In this document: piece after piece, positions 3,086 through 25,468 of the stretch | Layout of the letters: every line of letters starts with the position of its first letter | Position numbering within the stretch: position 1 is the stretch's first letter | Assembly: GCA_030039005.1 (NCBI GenBank) | Contig: JASHQT010000062.1 | Coordinates: forward strand, 1 to 25,757 | Direction: 5' to 3' | Length of the DNA: 25,757 bases | Origin: Bryobacteraceae bacterium | Lineage (GTDB): Bacteria > Acidobacteriota > Terriglobia > Bryobacterales > Bryobacteraceae | Made by a program: the position numbers and the translations under genes | Notes under the pieces: model-generated | The model's input: the letters and a program-made list of their open reading frames with translations, nothing else | Databases searched by the model: none | What the model was told of the DNA's origin: nothing

Positions 3086-4139
3086 CCGCACCGCGATTCC
3101 CTTCACGGAGCTGAAACTGGACGCGCTGCTCGTCTCCGCGCCGCCGAACGTCCGGTACCTCTGTGGATTCACCGGCGACAATGGCCTGCTGCTGGTCACG
3201 CCCCAATCGCAAACCTTGTTCACCGATCCGCGGTTCACGATTCAGGCTGCCCAAGAGTGTTCGTGCGAAGTCAAGACCGTTACCAAAACTCCGCTCGATC
3301 AAGCTGCGCTCCAGATCATCCGGCGCAAGCGCCTCAAGCGCGTCGGATTTGAAGCCACCCGCGTTTCTTACGAAGTTTTCGAGCGTCTCGAAAAAGGATT
3401 GCCGCGCGGCTCCACGCTCATTCCGGCCGGTCCCGTGGTGGACCGTCTGCGCATGGTGAAATCCGAGGGGGAACTCGCGCGCATCCGCCGCAGCGTGCTC
3501 ACGAACTCGGAAGCTTTCGAGAAGGCCGTCCGGTCCATCCGCCCCGGAGTGCGCGAATCGTCCATCGCGGCCGAGCTTGAATACCAGATGCGACGCCTGG
3601 GCGCCGAGAAACCGGCGTTTGAAACCATCGTGGCCGCAGGACCGCGCTCGGCGCTCCCGCACGCGCAGCCCACCGCGCGCACACTCGCTAATCATGAGCT
3701 GCTGCTGATCGACATGGGCGCCTGCCAGGACGGCTACATGAGCGACATGACTCGCGTGCTGTTCCTCGGCACACCCAGCCGCCGCGTACGCACCATGTAC
3801 AGAGCCGTATTGAATGCCCAACTGGCTGCCATCGATGCCGTCCGCCCTGGCGTCACCGCTGCGCATGTCGATCGCGCGGCGCGCCGCGTGCTCGAGCAAG
3901 AGGGCCTCGGGAAAGAATTCGTGCATTCCACCGGTCACGGCCTTGGCCTCGAGATCCACGAAGGCCCGCGGCTCGGCCGCCGCGACAAGACCAAGCTGGA
4001 ACCCGGCATGGCCATTACAATTGAGCCTGGTGCCTACATCCGCGACTTCTGCGGCATTCGCATCGAAGACACTGTATTGGTAACGAAGAACGGCAGCGAA
4101 ATTCTCACTCCCACGTCGAAGGAGCTCAGGCTGCTCTAG
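3075..4139 (+). CDS. pepP: M24-family Xaa-Pro aminopeptidase
   Basis: The 354-residue protein has the small creatinase-like N-domain (about 1-125) and the M24 pita-bread catalytic domain. All five metal ligands are visible in order: Asp in LLLIDMGA, Asp in YMSDMTR, His in HSTGHGLGLEIHE, Glu in ITIEPGAY and Glu in IRIEDTV. It should remove N-terminal residues before proline, using two divalent metals. The GTG start at 3075 overlaps the oxidoreductase stop by 11 bp and is favoured because the N-domain (KLDALLVSAPPNVRYLCGF) begins soon after. accB begins 1 bp after its stop. An M24 peptidase next to efp-accB-accC is a common bacterial arrangement (yqhT in Bacillus); efp is absent here. The symbol is by family only. 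Confidence 0.88.
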   Translation: MSPDRTAIPFTELKLDALLVSAPPNVRYLCGFTGDNGLLLVTPQSQTLFTDPRFTIQAAQECSCEVKTVTKTPLDQAALQIIRRKRLKRVGFEATRVSYEVFERLEKGLPRGSTLIPAGPVVDRLRMVKSEGELARIRRSVLTNSEAFEKAVRSIRPGVRESSIAAELEYQMRRLGAEKPAFETIVAAGPRSALPHAQPTARTLANHELLLIDMGACQDGYMSDMTRVLFLGTPSRRVRTMYRAVLNAQLAAIDAVRPGVTAAHVDRAARRVLEQEGLGKEFVHSTGHGLGLEIHEGPRLGRRDKTKLEPGMAITIEPGAYIRDFCGIRIEDTVLVTKNGSEILTPTSKELRLL

Positions 4140-9228: not shown

Positions 9229-10968
9229 CTACTGCAGGGAGAATACGGCATCCGGAGTCTCGACGCCGCCGACGGCCGCCTGCAACGAAACTTCGCCGGA
9301 GCCAAGGCCCCCGGGAACCGTCAGGTTGATCTGGTAAAGGCCGGGGCCGGACAACCCTGCAAACGACGGCGTCACGCTAACCTGGTTGATTTCGAGCGTC
9401 ACGGGATTGGTGGTTGGCGCCACTCCGGAAAATGCCTGACCAGCCGGAACCGCGGGATTGGTCGGCCCAAACCCAGTACCGAAAAGTTCAACCACATCGC
9501 CTGGTTTCGCGGCAACAGTTGGATAACCGAGTGAATTTCCGGTCGGCCCAAGGATGTCGTAGCTGCCTCCACCGTAGGCGCCCGAACCGTCGGATCTCAG
9601 GATGATGCCAGCTACATGCATGGAAGCGTCCAGCAGGAAAAACAAAGGACCGAACTCAGCCAGCGTTACAGTGGATGCACCACTACCGACAGCGGTGGTT
9701 ACCACCACGGGCGCCGTCCCGCTTGTCGTGACATTCGGGACTTGCAAGTCAATCTGTCCGGGGCTGACATACGAAAGATAAGCCTCTTGCCCGCCAATGG
9801 TCACAGTGGTGCCGCCGAGGGACGTTGGAAAGTTTCCCGTCCAATCTGCCGTGCCGCCGGCCAGATTGGTTCCGTAAATCGACACCCACTCTCCGGACTG
9901 TACCGTTCCTGGGACGATCCCATTTGAACTAATCTTCGGGAGAAGCCCCGTCCCACCACCCCCGGTGGTGAAGGCCACCCCAAAGGGTGAACTGCCCACG
10001 CCTATCGTGCCGACAACAGCGTTGCTCGATGTGTCGATTACCGTGACGGCGCCGTTGCCGATACCGGTAACGTTGGTTGCAATCGTCACATAGGCACGCG
10101 TTCCGTCCGGGCTAACAGCCACGCCAGTGGGTCCAGTCCCCACGCTCACCATGTCGACTACAGTGTTGCTCGACGTGTCGATCACCGAGACGGGGCCGGT
10201 GCCTCCGGGGCCGAAGGTCACCACATAGGCGTGCGCTCCGTCAGGCGTGATGGCAACCCCAACGGGGGAGTCCGCTACATTCGGCACGGATACTGTCGTG
10301 TCCACGGTGTTGGTCGAGGTGTCGATAACCGACACCGAGCCCAGGGCGTCGGCCACATAGGCACGCGTTCCATCCGGGGTGATGGCCACCCCCACGCTGC
10401 CCACGTTTCCCAACGTCACTGTGGCGGCCACCGTATTGCTTGATGTGTCGATTACCGAGACGGAACTGGATCCCATGCCGACGTTGCTGATGTAGGCGCG
10501 CGTTCCGTCCGGCGTGATGGCCACTCCACCGGGGGCAATCCCCACCGGAACCTTGGTCACCACCGTGTTGCTCGACGTTTCTATCACCGCCACGGAGTTG
10601 GCGTTGGCTTGCGTCACATACGCGCGCGTTCCGTCCGGGGTGACAGCCACGCCGGTGGGGCAGCCCCCTACGAGAAACTTGCTGGCCACTTTGTTGCTCG
10701 ATGTGTCGATCACCCAGACGTCGCCGCCGCAATTCGCTACATAGACGCTGGTTCCGTCCGGTGTGATGGCGACCCCTTGGGGTTGGGTTCCCACCATTAC
10801 TGTAGCGATCACGGTGTTACTCGATGTGTCGATCACCGAGACGTTATCGGAGCCGAAGTTCGCCACGTAGGCGAGAGCTTGAGCGTAAGAAAGCTGGCTT
10901 GAGCCCCAAAGCCCAGTTAACGCTGGGATCGAAACAGCGAAGACAGACGCTATTCTCCCAGACATCAT
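9229..10968 (-). CDS. Secreted seven-repeat YVTN beta-propeller protein with Solibacter-type C-terminal domain
   Basis: The 579-residue protein starts with a signal peptide (MMSGRIASVFAVS... ending near YAQA, residue 31). Seven YVTN/NHL-like repeats of about 40-47 residues follow (about 31-335), each with the pattern AYVAN...VSVIDTSSNTV...VGxxPxGVAITPDGT. Seven repeats are the right number for a closed propeller. The C-terminal part (about 338-579) has ISSNGIVPGTVQSGEWVSIYG, LPTSLGGTTVTIGG-like and AAKPGDVVELFGTGFGPTNP segments. These are typical of the domain that ends hundreds of secreted proteins in Candidatus Solibacter. Function is unknown; export and surface binding are inferred. The ATG at 10968 is chosen because a TATACT box at 10989-10994 overlaps the earlier TTG start at 10989. 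The next gene downstream is the carboxylase, 62 bp away. Confidence 0.88.
   Translation of the reverse strand: MMSGRIASVFAVSIPALTGLWGSSQLSYAQALAYVANFGSDNVSVIDTSSNTVIATVMVGTQPQGVAITPDGTSVYVANCGGDVWVIDTSSNKVASKFLVGGCPTGVAVTPDGTRAYVTQANANSVAVIETSSNTVVTKVPVGIAPGGVAITPDGTRAYISNVGMGSSSVSVIDTSSNTVAATVTLGNVGSVGVAITPDGTRAYVADALGSVSVIDTSTNTVDTTVSVPNVADSPVGVAITPDGAHAYVVTFGPGGTGPVSVIDTSSNTVVDMVSVGTGPTGVAVSPDGTRAYVTIATNVTGIGNGAVTVIDTSSNAVVGTIGVGSSPFGVAFTTGGGGTGLLPKISSNGIVPGTVQSGEWVSIYGTNLAGGTADWTGNFPTSLGGTTVTIGGQEAYLSYVSPGQIDLQVPNVTTSGTAPVVVTTAVGSGASTVTLAEFGPLFFLLDASMHVAGIILRSDGSGAYGGGSYDILGPTGNSLGYPTVAAKPGDVVELFGTGFGPTNPAVPAGQAFSGVAPTTNPVTLEINQVSVTPSFAGLSGPGLYQINLTVPGGLGSGEVSLQAAVGGVETPDAVFSLQ
9965..10878 (-). 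repeat. Seven tandem YVTN coding repeats
   Basis: Seven in-frame units of roughly 125-140 bp encode the propeller blades. Every unit keeps a DNA block near GTGTCGAT(C/T)ACCG (plus-strand reading of its complement region) coding for VIDTSSNTV, and a block coding for TPDGT. Unit length varies with loop insertions; the last two units are longest. The high similarity suggests recent duplication or homogenisation. Confidence 0.85.
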
Positions 10969-17484: not shown

Positions 17485-17916
17485 ATGGCGTTAAGAATCA
17501 CCCGCGGCGAGAAAGAGGGGATCTGGGTCCTGAAATTAGACGGGCGGCTGACGTTCGGGCCGGAGGACATCGAGATGAACGATGAGATCCGGCACGCGAT
17601 CGCAGCGCGGAGGGTGCGGCTGGTGCTCGATTTAGGGGGGGTAGATAAGATCGACAGCGCCGGACTAGGCACTTTGTTGTATGCGCGCGCGGAACTGCGC
17701 CGAGCCGGAGGTGGGCTGGCGCTGGCAAACTTGAGGCCGGCTCATCTACAGACCCTGCTGGTGGCGAAGCTGGAAACGGTATTCGACGTTTTCGAGACCG
17801 AGCAGGACGCCGTCAACAGCTTTTTCCCGGAGCGCGCGGTGCCGCACTACGATTTACTGGCGGTCATCCAAGGGATGCGCCGCGAACGCGCGCAGGATCT
17901 GCAGCCGACGCGCTAG
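17485..17916 (+). CDS. STAS-domain protein (anti-sigma factor antagonist-like)
   Basis: The 143-residue protein has a STAS domain (about 3-110) with the signature DKIDSAGLGTLLYARAELRR; Ser58 sits where SpoIIAA-type antagonists are phosphorylated. Such proteins release a sigma factor by binding its anti-sigma kinase, or act in stress signalling hubs. No kinase or sigma gene is near, so its partner is unknown. A good ribosome binding site (AGGAG, 17470-17474) lies 10 bp before the ATG. The last about 30 residues extend beyond the domain, and its 3' end overlaps the facing hydrogenase protease gene by 53 bp (17864-17916). The divergent region shared with the peptidase gene (17269-17484) shows no confident promoter. 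Confidence 0.88.
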   Translation: MALRITRGEKEGIWVLKLDGRLTFGPEDIEMNDEIRHAIAARRVRLVLDLGGVDKIDSAGLGTLLYARAELRRAGGGLALANLRPAHLQTLLVAKLETVFDVFETEQDAVNSFFPERAVPHYDLLAVIQGMRRERAQDLQPTR

Positions 17917-18403
17917 CGCGTGCAGGATCCGCATCATCTTCCCAGGCCCGCAATTGTTCGATCACCAGATCCGGGATTCTTTCGAGAGCATCGCGGACAG
18001 GCGGGGTCAATTCGGTTCCCCAATCGATTGACAGGGGCTGGATGCCGAAGAGCACGATCTGCTCGGGGGATTCGCCCAACAGTTCGAGCGCAACCATGAG
18101 GTCGGCGAAACCGAGTTGGTGAACGCTAGGCTTGCCGGGCAGATGGCGGAGCGCGTCGCCTTCCAGGCGCACCAGGGTACCGGGGGGTTCGCCGACGTCG
18201 AGGGCGTCGACCACAATGATGCGCTCGAAGGCCGAGATGTGCGGCAGCAAGGCCAAGCCTTGCGTGCCGCCGTCTAGGAGAACCACGTGCGAGGGGACAC
18301 GGGAATCGCGCTGCAGGATCTGGATTGCGTGAACGCCGAGTCCGTCGTCGGAATGGACCAGGTTTCCTAAACCGAGGACGAGCGTACGGCGTTCACACGT
18401 CAT
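17864..18403 (-). CDS. hyaD: [NiFe]-hydrogenase maturation protease (HyaD/HupD family)
   Basis: The 179-residue protein has the HybD/HycI fold landmarks: GLGNLVHSDDGLGVHA at 11-26, VVDALDVG at 64-71 and VHQLGFADL at 94-102. Asp20, Asp66 and His95 fit the three nickel-probing ligands (E16, D62, H93 in E. coli HybD). It cleaves the C-terminal tail of the large subunit after nickel insertion. It is the last gene of the hydrogenase operon, 4 bp after the cytochrome b gene. The C-terminus carries an extra Ala/Asp-rich tail of about 25 residues, partly inside the overlap with the STAS gene. Symbol follows the hya order small-large-cytochrome-protease. Confidence 0.9.
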   Translation of the reverse strand: MTCERRTLVLGLGNLVHSDDGLGVHAIQILQRDSRVPSHVVLLDGGTQGLALLPHISAFERIIVVDALDVGEPPGTLVRLEGDALRHLPGKPSVHQLGFADLMVALELLGESPEQIVLFGIQPLSIDWGTELTPPVRDALERIPDLVIEQLRAWEDDADPARASASAADPARVRGASLG

Positions 18404-18407
18404 GGCG

Positions 18408-19124
18408 TTATCGGGGGCTCACCTTGTCTTTGCGGGCTTCCATTTCGATTTCGTCCACCGGGATCACTTTGTAGCCGATGAAGATGCTGTCCATCAGGCC
18501 GTGCTTTTCAAAGCGCGAAACCAGCATCGCGAGGTGGACGTGGAAGACGCCGAAGGCGATAAACACATACATCAGGAAGAAGTGGATCAGCCGGAGCGTT
18601 TGGATGTTGACCAGGCGCGGAATCCAGCCGACCAGAGCGAGGAGGAACGCGTTGTGGAGCAGGCGCTGGTACATCACCAGGCCGGAGAGAACTTCGACCA
18701 GAACCAGCGCGTAGAGGCCGACGTAGGACATGGCGGCCAGGTGGTTGTGGCCGATTTTCGAGACTGGGCGCGGGCGGATGAAGGTGTAGAACTTCACCAT
18801 CTCCCACATTTCACGGAAGTGCTCTTTCTTGGTGGGAATATATTCGCGCCAGCCCTCCCACTTGTTGCCGCCGAAAAAGAGGTAGATGCGCAGGAGCAGA
18901 AGGGCGGTGAACAGCATGCCGAAGGTTTCGTGAACGAAGCGGAACTCAGCCATCAGGAACGGCCGGTTGGAGAGGCCGTAGATGAACGGGTCATGGATGT
19001 AGTAGCCGGTGACCGCGAGCACGCCGATGGAGATCACGATGCCCCAGTGGACCAAGCGCAGCGGGTATTGCCAGACGTAGACGGGCGCCGTCGCTTCGAC
19101 GCCCGAGAGTGCTTGAGTGGCCAT
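18408..19124 (-). CDS. hyaC: [NiFe]-hydrogenase cytochrome b subunit
   Basis: The 238-residue membrane protein has four or more helices and the family's histidines: LVHWGIV near 25, FVHETFGML near 63, GHNHLAAMSY near 125, and IHFFLMYVFIAFGVFHVHLA near 184-203. These fit two b-type haems as in HyaC/HupC. It anchors the hydrogenase to the inner membrane and passes electrons from the small subunit to the quinone pool. It begins 12 bp after the large-subunit stop with a perfect AGGAGG ribosome binding site. The C-terminus (VIPVDEIEMEARKDKVSPR) is cytoplasmic and charged. Confidence 0.93.
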   Translation of the reverse strand: MATQALSGVEATAPVYVWQYPLRLVHWGIVISIGVLAVTGYYIHDPFIYGLSNRPFLMAEFRFVHETFGMLFTALLLLRIYLFFGGNKWEGWREYIPTKKEHFREMWEMVKFYTFIRPRPVSKIGHNHLAAMSYVGLYALVLVEVLSGLVMYQRLLHNAFLLALVGWIPRLVNIQTLRLIHFFLMYVFIAFGVFHVHLAMLVSRFEKHGLMDSIFIGYKVIPVDEIEMEARKDKVSPR

Positions 19125-19136
19125 GGCGAGTTCCTC

Positions 19137-20870
19137 CTAACCGGCCTTGCGGCCCGCGCCGAGGCGCGTTGTGGGAATGGTGTAGTCGCGGCCGCGCGCA
19201 TCGAGGACATGCACGGCGCAGGCGATGCAGGGATCGAAGGAATGGATGGTGCGCAGGATCTCGAGCGGGCGCTCGGGGTCGGCGACCGGCGTCGAGAGTA
19301 GCGACGCTTCATAAGGGCCGCGCTGGCCCTGGCCGTCGCGCGGGCCGGCGTTCCAGGTGGTGGGGACCACGGCCTGGTAATTCTTGATGCCCTTGCCTTC
19401 GATCTCCACCCAATGGCCGAGCGATCCGCGCGGCGCTTCGTGCCAGCCGAAGCCGCGGCTGGAAGCGGCCCAGGTGCTGGGGTTCCATTTGGTGGTGTTG
19501 CAGATGGCCACCTTGCCGTGGGCCATGTTGGAGTCGAGCTGATCGACCCAGTCTTCCAGGTGATTGGCCATGATCTGCGATTCGATAGCGCGCGCCGCGA
19601 TGCGGCCGAGCGTGGAGAACAGCACCGTGGGGGGGGCGTTGAAGTACTTGAGCACGCCGTCGACGGCGGCGCGGATTTCCTTTTGTCCGGCCGCGTAGCC
19701 GACTACCATGCGGGCGAGCGGACCCACTTCCATGGGCTTGCCCTGATAGCGCGGCGATTTGAGCCAGGAGTATTTTTTATCGACTTCCAGGTAATCGTAA
19801 GGCGCCTTGGGACCCGTGTAGTTAGGATTCGTTTCGCCTTCGTAGGGATGGCGCGGCTTGTCGCCGTCGGAATAATCGTACCAGGCGTGGCTCACCGACT
19901 CGGTGATCTGGGCCGGATCGACAGGGTAGACTTTGGAGATGTCGCGGTTCAGCACGACGCCGCGGGGGAAGAGGAAGGAACTGGCGTCGCCCTGATCGGC
20001 CGAGGCGTAATCGCCGTAGGAGAGGAAATTGCCGACCCCTTCCCCGCGCGTGAACCAGTCCTTATAAAAGCCGGCGACCGCGAGGACGTCGGGGATGTAG
20101 ACTTGGTCGACGAATTTCTTGGCGTTGCGCGCCAGGTCCCGCAGCTTGCCGATGCTGTCCGGGTTGATGACCGCGAACGGTTCATTAGGGTCCATGGCGG
20201 TGGACATGCCGCCGACCAGGAAGGTCTGCGGGTGCGGGTTCTTGCCGCCGAGCAGCGCGTGGATGCGGATGAAGTCCTTCTGCCAAGTGAGGGCTTCGAG
20301 GTAATGCGCCACGGCGAGCAGGTTGGCTTCCGGCGGCAGATGATAGGCCGGATGGCCCCAATAGCCGCTGGTGAACAGGCTCAACTGGCCGCTTGCGACC
20401 AGGCCTTTCACGCGATCCTGCACGCCCTTGAAATACGTGGTGCTGGATTTTTCGTAGTTGGAGATGGATTGGGCGAGCTGCGAGGTCTTTCCGGGATCCG
20501 CTTTGAGCGCGCCGGTGACGTCCACCCAATCGAGCGCGTGCAGGTGATAGAAGTGAATGACGTGGTCCTGGACCATCTGCGAGCCGGCGATGAGATTGCG
20601 GACCAGGCGCGCATTTTCGGGGACTTCGATTTGCAGCGCGTCTTCGACGGCGCGGACGCTGGCGAGTGCATGCACCATGGTGCAGACGCCGCAGATGCGC
20701 TGCGCCCAGATCCAGGCCTCGCGCGGGTCGCGATCGCGCAGGATGATTTCGATGCCGCGGAACATGGTTCCGGCGCTCCAGGCGTCGGAGATTTTTCCCG
20801 AATCCACCTGGGCCTCGATGCGCAGGTGGCCTTCAATGCGAGTGACCGGATCTACTACCAGGCGTGCCAT
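19137..20870 (-). CDS. hyaB: [NiFe]-hydrogenase large (catalytic) subunit
   Basis: The 577-residue protein carries the Ni-Fe ligand motifs RICGVC (Cys60, Cys63) and DPCIACAVH (Cys548, Cys551, His554). The 23-residue tail after His554 (VLDARGRD...) is the part removed by the maturation protease. Other group 1 marks are VDPVTRIEGHLRIE at the start, HALASVRAVEDAL, QDHVIHFYHLHALDWVDVT and GGKNPHPQTFLVGG. It oxidises H2 in the periplasm, reaching it by riding on the Tat signal of the small subunit. The ATG at 20870 is chosen because the conserved N-terminus starts there and AAAGGA lies upstream; it begins 1 bp after the small-subunit stop. The upstream in-frame extension to 20969 lies inside the small-subunit gene and is rejected. 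Subgroup (1c, 1f or other) cannot be fixed by eye. Confidence 0.97.
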   Translation of the reverse strand: MARLVVDPVTRIEGHLRIEAQVDSGKISDAWSAGTMFRGIEIILRDRDPREAWIWAQRICGVCTMVHALASVRAVEDALQIEVPENARLVRNLIAGSQMVQDHVIHFYHLHALDWVDVTGALKADPGKTSQLAQSISNYEKSSTTYFKGVQDRVKGLVASGQLSLFTSGYWGHPAYHLPPEANLLAVAHYLEALTWQKDFIRIHALLGGKNPHPQTFLVGGMSTAMDPNEPFAVINPDSIGKLRDLARNAKKFVDQVYIPDVLAVAGFYKDWFTRGEGVGNFLSYGDYASADQGDASSFLFPRGVVLNRDISKVYPVDPAQITESVSHAWYDYSDGDKPRHPYEGETNPNYTGPKAPYDYLEVDKKYSWLKSPRYQGKPMEVGPLARMVVGYAAGQKEIRAAVDGVLKYFNAPPTVLFSTLGRIAARAIESQIMANHLEDWVDQLDSNMAHGKVAICNTTKWNPSTWAASSRGFGWHEAPRGSLGHWVEIEGKGIKNYQAVVPTTWNAGPRDGQGQRGPYEASLLSTPVADPERPLEILRTIHSFDPCIACAVHVLDARGRDYTIPTTRLGAGRKAG

Positions 20871-20871
20871 G

Positions 20872-22038
20872 TTAGTTTTCCTTTCTAGTGGCCGTGACGC
20901 CGCCATTGCCATGCGCCACCGGTTGAGTGGTCCGCGCGGGCTCGGGGGATGCGGGTGCGGAAGGGCCATCCGCGGGCGGCTTGGGCGCGGGCTTGATCAT
21001 CTGAATCAGGCCGTGCGCGGTGACGCCGGCGATGGTGGCGCCGACTAATCCTAAGCCGATTTGCCCGGCGGTAACTTCGACGCCGAAGCCGGGGACCGAG
21101 GGCACGCGATCGTAGAACGGCGACATGTGGTCCCAGAAGCGCGGCGAGGCGCAGGCGATGCAGCCGTGGCCGGCGCGCACCGGCCAACTGGTATGGTCGT
21201 TCCAGCCTTCCACGGGGCAGTTAAACGTGGCGGCGGGACCCTTGCAGCCCATTTTGTACAGGCACCAGCCCTTGCGGTGGCCTTCGTCGCCCCAATCCAC
21301 CACGAAGCGGCCGGCGTCGTAGTGCGCGCGGCGCTCGCATTGATCGTGAATGATACGGCCGTAAGCGAACAGCGGACGGTTGTACTGATCGAGCGCGGGC
21401 AGATCGTTGAATGTGAGGAAATGCACCAGCGCCGCGGCGGTGTTGGCCGGATTGTGCGGGCATCCGGCCATGTTCATGACCTTGATGCCGGGCACGGCTT
21501 CGTGGACGCCGAGGCCGCCGGTGGGATTGGGTGCGGCGCGCACCAGGCCTCCATCGAAGGCGCAGGCGCCTACCGCGATGGTGGCGGCGGCGTTGCGGCA
21601 GACTTTATTGGCGATCTCCATGGCGCTGTGGCCTCCGATGTTGCAGAAACCTTCGCCGGTGGGGATGGCGCCTTCCACCACCGCCAGGTATTTTCCCTTA
21701 TCCTCATTCACTACGCGATCGAGCACCGCATTGGCGGCTTTGCCCGCGCCCGGCATGATCACTTCGTGGTATTCCCAGCTCAGCAGGTCGAGCACGGCCT
21801 CGGCGACATCGGGATGGCTGGAGCGCAGCATGGATTCCGAACAGCCGGTACAATCCTGGAACTGCAGCCATAACAAGACCGGTTTTCTCGCCTTGCTGAC
21901 CGCACTCACCACTTGGCCGAGATATTTTTCCGGCAGCGCGAGGGTGCCGAGCATGGCGCTGCAAAACTGAATGAGCTGGCGGCGCGAGATGCCCTGGTGG
22001 GCCAGCGCGGCTTGTAGATTAGTGTCCGACGACAGCAT
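20872..22038 (-). CDS. hyaA: [NiFe]-hydrogenase small subunit, Tat-exported and membrane-anchored
   Basis: The 388-residue protein has a twin-arginine signal (SRRQLIQFCSAMLG, Arg19-Arg20). Proximal cluster ligands are Cys63 and Cys66 (CTGC), Cys159 and Cys193 (GCPHNP). The distal cluster has His231, Cys234, Cys259 and Cys265. The medial cluster has Cys274, Cys293 and Cys296, with Pro286 where a fourth cysteine would be, so a 3Fe-4S cluster is expected. The two extra cysteines of O2-tolerant enzymes are glycines here (Gly65, Gly164). A C-terminal membrane helix (about 322-348) anchors it to the cytochrome. A Pro/Ala-rich tail of about 40 residues follows, longer than usual. The start overlaps hypB by 20 bp and has a GGAGG ribosome binding site. 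Confidence 0.96.
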   Translation of the reverse strand: MLSSDTNLQAALAHQGISRRQLIQFCSAMLGTLALPEKYLGQVVSAVSKARKPVLLWLQFQDCTGCSESMLRSSHPDVAEAVLDLLSWEYHEVIMPGAGKAANAVLDRVVNEDKGKYLAVVEGAIPTGEGFCNIGGHSAMEIANKVCRNAAATIAVGACAFDGGLVRAAPNPTGGLGVHEAVPGIKVMNMAGCPHNPANTAAALVHFLTFNDLPALDQYNRPLFAYGRIIHDQCERRAHYDAGRFVVDWGDEGHRKGWCLYKMGCKGPAATFNCPVEGWNDHTSWPVRAGHGCIACASPRFWDHMSPFYDRVPSVPGFGVEVTAGQIGLGLVGATIAGVTAHGLIQMIKPAPKPPADGPSAPASPEPARTTQPVAHGNGGVTATRKEN

Positions 22039-22732
22039 GTTCCACCTCCTCCGCCTTTAAGGCGGCTCGTTTGGCTGCGGCGCGGCGGGCGAGCCAGTTG
22101 AGCCACAAGTCCAGGCCCGCGCCGGTAGTGCAGGATGTTTCGATTACTTCAATGCCCGGATGGATCCGGCGCGCGTTGTCCAGCGCCAGTTGCGGATCGA
22201 AGGGCACATACGGGAGCAGATCGATTTTGTTCAGAATCATCAGCTCGGCTTTGCGGAAGATGCCGGGATATTTAAGTGGCTTGTCTTCCCCCTCGGTGAC
22301 GCTGAGCACGACGACTTTGGCGTCTTCGCCCAAATCGTAGCTGGTGGGGCAGACCAGATTACCGACGTTTTCAATGAAGAGATAGTCCAGGCGGCCGGCG
22401 AGCCGGTCCGTGAGTAACTCTTCGAGATGGTTCTCCACCATGCGGGCGTCAAGGTGACAGGCGCCGGTGGTGGTGATCTGGCGCACGGGGTAGCCGTAGC
22501 GGGCCAGGCGCCGCGCGTCGTTGTCGGTTTGGAGGTCGCCGGTGAGCACGGCCGCGCGTGTTCCTTGCGGGAGCATTTGGAGCGTTTTTTCGAGCAGGCT
22601 GGTTTTGCCCGAGCCCGGCGAGCTGATCAGGTTGAGCGTCAGGGTGCCGGAGCGGGCGAAGGATTCACGCAGCCGCGCCGCGATTTGATCGTTCTCGCTC
22701 AGGACTTTCTTCTCGAGGATTAGTTTCTCCAT
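22019..22732 (-). CDS. hypB: Hydrogenase nickel-incorporation GTPase HypB
   Basis: The 237-residue GTPase has the Walker A loop SSPGSGKTS (Lys43), the LTGDLQTDNDARR segment, the metal-site GACHLDA, the IENVGNLVCP switch region and the NKIDLLPY guanine-specificity motif. HypB, with HypA, loads nickel into the large subunit at the cost of GTP. The histidine-rich nickel-storage N-terminus of some HypBs, and the CxxCGC motif of E. coli HypB, are absent. The ATG at 22732 has GGAGG just upstream and overlaps the 3' end of hypA by 68 bp. The C-terminal helix is extended by an Ala/Glu/Lys-rich tail. Confidence 0.95.
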   Translation of the reverse strand: MEKLILEKKVLSENDQIAARLRESFARSGTLTLNLISSPGSGKTSLLEKTLQMLPQGTRAAVLTGDLQTDNDARRLARYGYPVRQITTTGACHLDARMVENHLEELLTDRLAGRLDYLFIENVGNLVCPTSYDLGEDAKVVVLSVTEGEDKPLKYPGIFRKAELMILNKIDLLPYVPFDPQLALDNARRIHPGIEVIETSCTTGAGLDLWLNWLARRAAAKRAALKAEEVEHAVVGH

Positions 22733-22982
22733 CTGAAGATTCCTCCATTTCCAAATAGGCGAGCTTCAGCTCGTCCGAGCCGGTGCGCCAGTCGATGGCA
22801 AGCTCGGGCGCCGGCACCCGGTCGCGCGCCAGAACCTCGAAGCAGAAGCGCAGGGATTCGGTGTCGACGCCCGCGTACTCGCCGATCACGACCGCGATCT
22901 TGGCCGGCCAGCGACCGGGGTAGTGCCGGGCTTCGTTGTCGGCGGCTTCGAGAATTGAACTGGCGATGCCCATTTCGTGCAT
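22665..22982 (-). CDS. hypA: HypA-like nickel metallochaperone lacking the zinc domain
   Basis: The 105-residue protein begins [18 protein letters not shown], the exact HypA nickel-binding start (Met1 amine, His2, Glu3). It continues through the HypA core AKIAVVIGEYAGVDTESLRFCFEVLARD. In normal HypA a zinc domain with two CxxC pairs follows (about 35 residues). Here the chain runs from ELAIDWR straight into GSDELKLAYLEMEE, the usual last strand. The only cysteine is in RFCFEV. Both flanks of the loop are in one frame, so this is a clean deletion, not a frameshift. After LEMEE, about 24 further residues read through the hypB start and look non-functional. The ATG at 22982 shares one base with the hypE stop (TAATG) and is preferred over TTG at 22988 because nickel binding needs His at position 2. 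Confidence 0.85.
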   Translation of the reverse strand: MHEMGIASSILEAADNEARHYPGRWPAKIAVVIGEYAGVDTESLRFCFEVLARDRVPAPELAIDWRTGSDELKLAYLEMEESSDGETNPREESPERERSNRGAAA

Positions 22983-24049
22983 TAGCAAATCCTCGGCAAC
23001 TGTTCGCCGGCCAGCATGTCGACGATACGGGAGGAGCCGAATGCCGTTTGCATAGTGACCAGCCCTGCGCTTTCTTCTCCTACGGTTCCGATGATGGCCG
23101 CTTCGGCACCCAGCGGATCCTCCCGCATAGCTTGCAAAACCTCATCGGCCGCCTCGGGCGCCACGATCGCGATCAATTTGCCTTCGTTGGCGACATAGAG
23201 CGGGTCGAGACCGAGCAGTTCGCAGGCGCCGCGGACCTCGTCGCGGATCGGGATCTGGGTTTCTTCGATGCGAATGCTAACGCCGGACTGCGCCGCGATT
23301 TCGTTCAGCGTGCTCGACACTCCGCCGCGCGTCGGATCCCGCATGGTGCTAACCGCACCGGCGGGTGCGCAGGCGAGCATCCGTGAAACTAGGCCGTGCA
23401 ACGCGGCCGAATCGCTACGGATTTCGGTCTCGAATTCCAGGCCCTCGCGCTGGGCGAGGATGGCGATGCCGTGATCGCCGATGGAGCCGCTTAAGAGAAC
23501 GCGGTCGCCCGGGCGGGCCTGGCTCGCGCTGAGGCGCACACCGTCCGGTACCAGCCCGATCCCGGTCGTATTAATAAAGACACCGTCGCCTTTGCCGCGC
23601 TCGACCACTTTGGTGTCGCCGGTGACGATGGCAACCCCGGCCCGAGCCGCGGCATCCGCCATCGAGCGGGCGATGCGCCGCAATTGCTCGGTCGGAAAAC
23701 CTTCCTCGAGAATAAATCCCGCGCTTAGATACAAGGGGCGTGCCCCACCCATGGCCAGATCGTTAATGGTGCCGTGGACGGCGAGGGAACCGATGTCGCC
23801 GCCGGGGAAAAACAGCGGCTGGACCACAAACGAATCCGTGGTGAAAGCCAGGCGCGCGCCCGCGATTTCGACCACCGCCTGGTCGTCCATGCGATCGAGC
23901 ACCGGATTTCCGAATACCGGCAGGAAGACGTCGCGCAGCAGTTCGGCGCTGAGCCGTCCGCCCGAGCCATGGCCGAGCACGATGCGCTCGGACTGCGCGA
24001 GCGGAGCAGGACAAGTGAAACGAGCGATTTCTGTGGCGAGTTCAGGCAT
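22982..24049 (-). CDS. hypE: Hydrogenase maturation protein HypE (thiocyanate-forming)
   Basis: The 355-residue protein of the PurM/SelD fold has [19 protein letters not shown] near the start, [49 protein letters not shown] and [17 protein letters not shown]. It ends in PRIC, the C-terminal cysteine that receives the carbamoyl group from HypF and is dehydrated to thiocyanate for the iron cyanide ligands. All ATP-site blocks are intact. The ATG overlaps the hypD stop by 8 bp. hypF, needed to supply the carbamoyl group, is not in the window. Confidence 0.97.
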
Positions 24050-25151
24050 GGATTTGAATGGGAATGGAATGGCGGCGGTATTGATAATAGGCCGCGCAAG
24101 CGCCTTCGGAGGAAACCATGGGGGCGCCGAGCGGCGTCATGGGTGTGCAGCGTGTGCCGAAGGCGGGGCAGTCGAGGGGTTTCTTCAGCCCCTGGAGGAC
24201 GAGCGCGCTGATGCACTCCGCGGGTTCCTCAGCGTGCCAGTCCTCCATCCCGTAAACGCGCTCGGCGTCGAAGTCCGCGAATTCCTCGCGCAGCCGGAAC
24301 CCACTTTGGGCGATCGGGCCGATGCCGCGCCACTGGCGGCCCGAAACTTCGAACACCTCGCGCAAGACCTGCTGGGCGGGCAGGTTGCCTTCATAATTCA
24401 CCGACCGCGCGTACTGATTTTCGACCTCGGCGCGGCCTTCTTCCAGTTGTGAGACCAGCATGGAGATGGCCTCGAGCAAATCCAGGGGCTCAAACCCGCC
24501 CACCACCATCGGCACGCGGAATTCGCGGGCGAGGTCTTCATATTCGCGGTAGCCCATCACGGTGCAGACATGGCCGGGTGCGATAAAGCCCTGGACGCGA
24601 TTGGCGGGCGAGCTCAGAATCAGACGCATGGCCGGCGGAACGAGCACGTGCGAAACCAGCATCGAAAAATTCTTGAGACCTTCGCGCTTGGCCTGCCACA
24701 CCGCCATGCCGTTGGCGGGCGCGGTGGTTTCGAAGCCGACGCCGAAGAAGACCACTTTGCGGTGGGGATTTTCGCGCGCCAGTTTCACCGCGTCCATGGG
24801 CGAATAGACGATGCGCACGTCGGCGCCTTGGGCCTTGGCCTGGAACAGATCCGATTCCGAGCCGGGGACGCGCAGCATGTCGCCATAGGAGGTGAAGATG
24901 ACTCCCGGGAGCGAGGCGATACGGACGGCGCGGTCCACCATTTCGATGGGCGTGACGCACACCGGGCAGCCGGGGCCGTGCACCAACTCGATTTCGCGCG
25001 GCAGCAGCTCGTCGATGCCGTAACGCATCAGCGTATGGGTCTGGCCGCCGCAGACTTCCATGAGCACCCAGGGGCGGGTGACTTTGCGGGCGATTTCGGC
25101 GGCCAAGCCTCGAGCGAGCGTGGGATCGCGATATTCATCGACGTATTTCAT
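24042..25151 (-). CDS. hypD: Hydrogenase maturation protein HypD (Fe(CN)2CO assembly)
   Basis: The 369-residue protein has the HypD core cysteines: Cys34 in [10 protein letters not shown], and Cys62 and Cys65 in [11 protein letters not shown]. The C-terminal 4Fe-4S ligands lie in [20 protein letters not shown] and EGACAAYY. The conserved [12 protein letters not shown] and [15 protein letters not shown] segments are present. With HypC it forms the scaffold on which the iron receives CN and CO ligands. It overlaps hypC by 4 bp (ATGA) and hypE by 8 bp, consistent with coupled translation. Length is normal for the family. Confidence 0.97.
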
Positions 25152-25468
25152 CGCGCCGCTCCGATCCCGCGCCCGGCGGAGGATGCGGACTCACCTGACT
25201 GGAGGCCTTGTTCAGTGGCAGGCGCCAAGCCTTCCTCAGACAAGGCCCCGATCTCGAGCAGATATTGATAGGTCCGGCGGGCTTCCTCTTCATCCACGCG
25301 GGTCAACGCGAAGCCGACGTGCACCAGCAAGAAGTCGCCGGGCGCGGCGTCCGGGGTGAAGGCCAGGTTGACGGTTTTCTTGACGCCGCAGAAATCCACG
25401 CGACCGAGCCGGAAGGCGGGATCGTCGCCTTCGATGCTCAACAGCTTGCCAGGAACTGCCAAACACAT
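25148..25468 (-). CDS. hypC: Hydrogenase maturation chaperone HypC
   Basis: The 106-residue protein begins [14 protein letters not shown]; Cys2 is the essential HypC residue that binds the iron centre once Met is removed. This fixes the ATG at 25468 and rules out the upstream extension, although the frame is open to 25585. The OB-fold continues with [20 protein letters not shown] and [20 protein letters not shown]. It carries the Fe(CN)2CO unit between HypD and the large subunit. After about residue 78 there is a Gly/Ser/Ala-rich tail of nearly 30 residues, longer than in most HypCs. AAGGAG lies upstream at a suitable distance. It is the first gene of the nine-gene hydrogenase operon. Confidence 0.94.

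Follow-up and report, generated by a model that had tools for sequence, protein, structure and literature searches.

The proteins of the HypA/HybF family (PF01155, TIGR00100), for which several structures are available (3a43, 2kdx, 6g81, 5aun and 5yxy), are described in the accessible part of a review as all carrying a nickel site and a zinc site made of two CxxC motifs (PMC7055735). The portions available of the work on H. pylori mutants assign the zinc site an important role. Another report, again as far as its accessible text goes, describes operons of the hypAFCDE type that lack hypB in several bacteria, with UreG suggested as a substitute; the HypA of the group 3b hydrogenase of Nitrosococcus oceani AFC132 belongs to such an operon (PMC7285500). 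Here we describe a hypA gene without the zinc domain, found on a contig of 25,757 nucleotides from a Bryobacteraceae bacterium (JASHQT010000062.1, assembly GCA_030039005.1), the whole of which is referred to below as the window. No mention of a zinc-less HypA was found in the titles, abstract openings and passages searched in open-access papers, and, judging from the sequences of the window protein and its relatives, the generalisation in the accessible part of the review fails for them.

The zinc-less hypA gene and its relatives

The gene occupies positions 22665..22982 of the minus strand, with its ATG at 22982 and a stop codon ending at 22665, and encodes 105 residues, as delimited in an earlier note made from the letters of this DNA (the sequence-only reading). 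The MHE start and the absence of CxxC motifs, which that reading had pointed out, are borne out; the protein contains a single cysteine. As in canonical HypA, the residues M1-H2-E3-D40 of the H. pylori protein are present, and the gene lies between hypE and hypB, so that a HypB partner is encoded alongside (22019-22732). In contrast to canonical HypA, the zinc ribbon with its two CxxC motifs is missing, leaving about 81 residues against at least 111. The match to PF01155 (42.3 bits, against a curated cut-off of 28.9) places the protein in the superfamily and is confined to profile positions 1-57 of 112, the N-terminal half, which supports the earlier proposal of a HypA reduced to a core of about 80 residues. 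The predicted structure shows the HypA nickel-domain fold, with the alpha-beta arrangement of canonical HypA across the entire core; in Foldseek the template modelling scores over the query are modest (0.47-0.60 for 14 HypA chains), in part, we think, because of a disordered tail. This C-terminal tail (S82-A105 and the stop codon, 22665..22739) is predicted to be disordered, and two relatives end just past the core (82 residues), so the functional unit is the core of about 81 residues (residues 1-81, 22982-22740). The last 68 nucleotides of hypA overlap hypB, which starts at 22732 in another frame; the tail encoded there (22665-22732) resembles that of the relative L003 (ESPERERS/ESAERERS), probably because this segment also codes, in a different frame, for the beginning of HypB.

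Querying GTDB species genomes with the window HypA yielded 14 loci. Five of them (L001, L002, L003, L008 and L009), all labelled Bryobacterales or Bryobacteraceae, encode proteins of 82-113 residues without CxxC, eight encode proteins of 113-126 residues with two CxxC motifs, and L014 shows one motif and a masked stretch. Full-length acidobacterial HypAs (L004-L007, L010 and L011) are 44-53% identical to the window protein in our alignment A1 and share the order hypE-hypA-hypB, but retain both CxxC motifs. The gap for which the sequence-only reading proposed to align the relatives is present in alignment A1: 27-32 columns at the zinc ribbon are absent from the five short loci, which retain the final strand, and the eight others carry two CxxC motifs there. 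In the window the place of the zinc domain falls between codons R66 and T67 (22782..22787, minus strand), within the region where the junction had been put, although ELAIDWR and GSDELK are not directly joined as then described; a threonine sits between them. L003 has additionally lost residues ahead of the junction, whose length varies. As five loci lack the very columns in which eight others hold two CxxC motifs, an isolated error does not account for the absence; the extra CxxC-coding bases at this point that the earlier note had named as a possible refutation are not found in the five nearest zinc-less loci, and each of these five genomes has a single HypA above the cut-off.

The form extends well beyond these loci. 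Searched against a protein database, the short forms matched 1991 proteins at an expectation value (E) of at most 1e-6, possibly including full-length HypAs; the best 120 of them all lack CxxC, with MHE within the first 20 residues in 118/120 and Asp40 in 118/118. Among 150 genomes of the order of G003, HypA was detected in 70, at 72 places. At 22 of these places, each in a separate genome, the match ends at profile position 52-69 and no CxxC was found on reading; one further place (L094, in G138) has a single CxxC and a CxC, and the other 49, read individually, hold at least two CxxC each. The 22 zinc-less places are of two kinds, 15 of the window type (hypA adjoining hypB, 81-113 residues) and 7 that begin with MHE[ST][SG] (82-89 residues). 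The window kind is the sole HypA above the cut-off in 14/15 of these genomes and in G001 and G002, 16/17 in total; only G078 has the second, full-length hypA that the sequence-only reading had considered. In the phylum samples (396 genomes, 183 with HypA at E <= 1e-4, and 297 genomes), judged by best E-values and listed rows, the first contains at least four cases of zinc-less HypA (G003, G463, G230 and G531). That many relatives share the same zinc-less kind suggests that the zinc-binding half of HypA can be done without.

Both forms occur together in G078 (L076 and L050) and G143 (L090 and L103), genomes that should be useful for asking which hydrogenase each form serves. G138 holds a divergent HypA (L094:1569-1937) whose zinc site is altered (CVC and CAAC, that is, one CxC and one CxxC), located beside distant hydrogenase genes; no HypB was found in that genome.

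HypB, the proposed function and its rivals

We consider it probable that the window gene encodes a working minimal HypA, made of the nickel-binding domain alone and reached by in-frame loss of the zinc ribbon. Such a loss would have taken out the insertion between the last two strands, leaving them joined via a short turn, and the alpha-beta domain would therefore close normally. Nickel would most likely be bound at M1/H2/E3/D40, by analogy with the ligands of H. pylori HypA; the protein would dock on hydrophobic residues at the N-terminus of HypB, the product of the adjacent gene, and the large subunit of the operon's own membrane-type hydrogenase would receive the nickel. We infer that nickel binding, HypB docking and delivery may all proceed without the zinc domain. 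Where this domain has been lost the core persists, and in the window kind HypB persists too; most simply, the zinc domain would be an insert in the nickel domain, modulating nickel delivery without being what brings it about.

HypB exceeds the cut-off in 17/17 genomes with the window-kind HypA. In A. fulgidus HypB, Tyr4 and Leu6 are required for HypA binding, according to the accessible part of the report (PMC3287977), and L4 and L6 of the window HypB align with these docking residues (2wsm). Both positions are hydrophobic in 17/19 partners of zinc-less HypAs and 55/56 partners of full-length ones, the corresponding counts being 19/19 and 56/56 for the CHL motif and 19/19 and 53/56 for the NLVCP-type motif. 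Over the first 30 aligned residues and the preceding open frame, none of the 19 partners of zinc-less HypAs showed a CxxC or a His cluster. With docking positions and motifs kept and no such cluster added, the GTPase side looks unchanged beside the zinc-less HypA.

The sequence-only reading had offered HypB, or another chaperone, as the main nickel loader, in which case HypA would be a mere adaptor or remnant. The constant presence of HypB beside the window kind agrees with this, as do reports, in the parts accessible, that added nickel can wholly or partly replace HypA/HypB in mutants (PMC7285500 and PMC3287977 among the sources). However, HypA has retained its nickel-site residues (MHE close to the start in 118/120 and Asp40 in 118/118 of the best 120 homologues), and no CxxC or His cluster was seen at or ahead of the start of the 19 partner HypBs; loading mainly by HypB is for these reasons less likely, and we regard it as improbable.

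Several points weigh against a working minimal HypA. Hydrogenase activity in H. pylori falls when cysteines of the HypA zinc site are mutated, as reported in the accessible text, and thus the zinc domain matters there. The window protein, unlike canonical HypA, falls far below the cut-off of the HypA equivalog model TIGR00100 (33.2 bits against 88.1). Sole-HypA status is known from the genomes of relatives, and the genome of the window itself may hold a second hypA. Asp40 is not specific to the zinc-less kind, being shared by 15/56 full-length HypAs with HypB, and L117 (G463:C154), a zinc-less HypA adjoining hypB, has Leu at this position. With regard to the ratio of nonsynonymous to synonymous substitution rates (dN/dS), saturation is complete or close in 5/7 pairs, and the pair L077/L078, which looks unsaturated (dS 1.06), stands at 0.45.

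This last value would also suit a decaying, truncated pseudogene, as would the disappearance of a conserved domain and the variable length of the junction, with more lost ahead of it in L003. We considered and rejected this explanation, which appears very unlikely: the copies read have open frames and the last strand, dN/dS is low in the two least diverged pairs, and the form recurs widely. Marginally less credible still, and also rejected, is the idea that another small protein provides a zinc ribbon in trans, for which we found nothing positive; a six-frame scan of the window for CxxC-X8-25-CxxC returned three chance-like matches (10437-10487, 21783-21875 and 3736-3801), and the one near hypA, at 21783-21875, lies within the small-subunit gene in another frame. 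An assembly or sequencing error, for which no support was found, is practically refuted by the absence of the same segment from independent metagenome-assembled genomes as well as from database proteins of many contigs.

Evolution of the zinc-less form

The possibility raised by the sequence-only reading of a distinct subfamily finds no support as a single lineage, because a single clade is rejected by approximately unbiased (AU) tests. The HypB tree, with 73 rows (19 zinc-less and 54 full-length), requires six changes of the trait, at least four of them forced by well-supported branches. A HypE+HypB tree was calculated from 41 rows, namely the 37-row clade of the HypB tree that holds the window and four outgroup rows, with L117 omitted; grouping its 18 zinc-less rows was rejected (AU-test p-value, p-AU, 0.00404). 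The single grouping was again rejected (p-AU 0.0048) on a reduced tree (15 against 13 rows), from which the long branch L093 had been removed together with 12 rows in which less than half of the columns are filled (L053, L057, L072, L078, L079, L103, L110, L116, L045, L050, L058 and L111). Well-supported branches force at least four changes on the first HypE+HypB tree and at least two on the reduced one. One origin of the zinc-less form is rejected by these tests, with p-values that are somewhat flattering because the HypE+HypB rows were chosen after the HypB tree was known.

The window lies inside a well-supported, all-short set of eight rows in the HypB and first HypE+HypB trees and of seven in the reduced tree, and on the 41-row tree the full-length L004, L007 and L112 cluster with the short L001, L003 and L009. 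Since the outgroup is full-length, loss of the zinc domain is the likely direction of change. The number of losses is not fixed by the trees, in which L093 is a long branch, and replacement or swapping of hypA between operons by recombination may be an alternative to repeated loss, from which the trees do not separate it. L117 falls outside the window clade on the HypB tree and is possibly another independent loss. We looked for a tie between zinc loss and a single hydrogenase type without finding one: strong PF00374 matches (best E < 1e-100) occur in 13/17 short-form genomes versus 8/19 full-length relatives, weak matches, which may include complex I NuoD, having been left unsorted.

The operon and a second zinc-less kind

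The genes on the minus strand follow the order hypC, hypD, hypE, hypA, hypB, small subunit, large subunit, b-type cytochrome and maturation protease, and the hydrogenase is presumably of the membrane type, group 1. By their family matches the other genes of the operon look intact, in line with the earlier statement that the neighbouring hyp genes look functional. The start of hypC (25148..25468) was placed by match at MCLAVPG, at 25468, PF01455 beginning at residue 40 of a mechanical open reading frame that runs to 25585. It is followed by hypD (24042..25151; TIGR00075, 501.8 bits), hypE (22982..24049; TIGR02124, 478.6 bits), whose stop overlaps the hypA start (TAATG), and, beyond hypA, the gene for the GTPase HypB (22019..22732, 237 residues; TIGR00073, 264.1 bits), identified also by its CHL and NLVCP motifs and alignment to 2wsm. 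The [NiFe]-hydrogenase small subunit (20872..22038; TIGR00391, 378.7 bits) precedes the large subunit, the presumed nickel client (19137..20870; PF00374, 772 bits; best solved relative 3myr), whose start at 20870 was placed by us, the mechanical frame extending to 20969. The b-type cytochrome subunit (18408..19124; TIGR02125, 128.6 bits) and the maturation protease (17864..18403; PF01750; TIGR00072, 139.1 bits) complete the series. Elsewhere in the window, the list of open reading frames contains two similar adjacent stretches, 1012-1578 and 239-786, with blocks in common, ELKADQPITDPLLPGFS among them; of the two copies, the first is divided between two open reading frames in different frames and looks broken.

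The second zinc-less kind (L080, L081, L082, L085, L086, L087, L090, L096 and L098) comprises proteins of 82-89 residues with His43, and its predicted model likewise matches HypA structures. Its profile finds at least 4153 proteins at E <= 1e-6, surely including full-length HypAs; the 124 sequences retrieved for this kind all lack CxxC, 96/124 lack any Cys, and the source names of such proteins include Acidobacteria, Thioalkalivibrio, Planctomycetota and Proteobacteria. At position 40 the 124 sequences have Ser, Thr, Gly or Ala, and 4/8 retrieved second-kind loci have Asp; in an alignment of 48 sequences (A5) His43 never varies and His47 hardly does. In the two loci annotated, L086 and L087, the order is hypA, hypF, hypC, hypD, hypE, in group-3-like operons; in L087 hypA comes after a HoxU gene (NF005745, 394.3 bits, above the cut-off) and a large subunit that comes closest to group-3 models, yet below their cut-offs. 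As far as the accessible text on AFC132 allows (PMC7285500), this gene order and the lack of a detected HypB are shared with it, a likeness that concerns the operon, whereas the window kind has HypB, the order hypCDEAB and no His43. No HypB was detected at E <= 1e-8 in any of the eight genomes, of unstated completeness, in which the second kind is the only HypA seen (G113, G140, G128, G126, G089, G075, G531 and G230); in G143 it is present, adjoining the full-length HypA. Weaker matches to the HypB model (43-102 bits), perhaps UreG, occur in six other genomes and in none of the eight.

It is possible, if somewhat short of an even chance, that the zinc domain is a dispensable regulatory insert, repeatedly lost, and that the bare nickel domain of 80 residues works with HypB in operons like that of the window and, in the widespread lineage with an invariant His43, without any HypB in group-3 operons. 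If true, nickel insertion in the latter would take a single protein of about 85 residues, with no GTPase involved. In most of the genomes that have them, no HypA other than these natural zinc-less ones was found, and therefore the purpose of the zinc domain becomes directly testable, with a similar enzyme and a similar HypB, in its presence and in its absence. For the production of hydrogenases, such proteins might also be of use as nickel-delivery modules of the smallest size.
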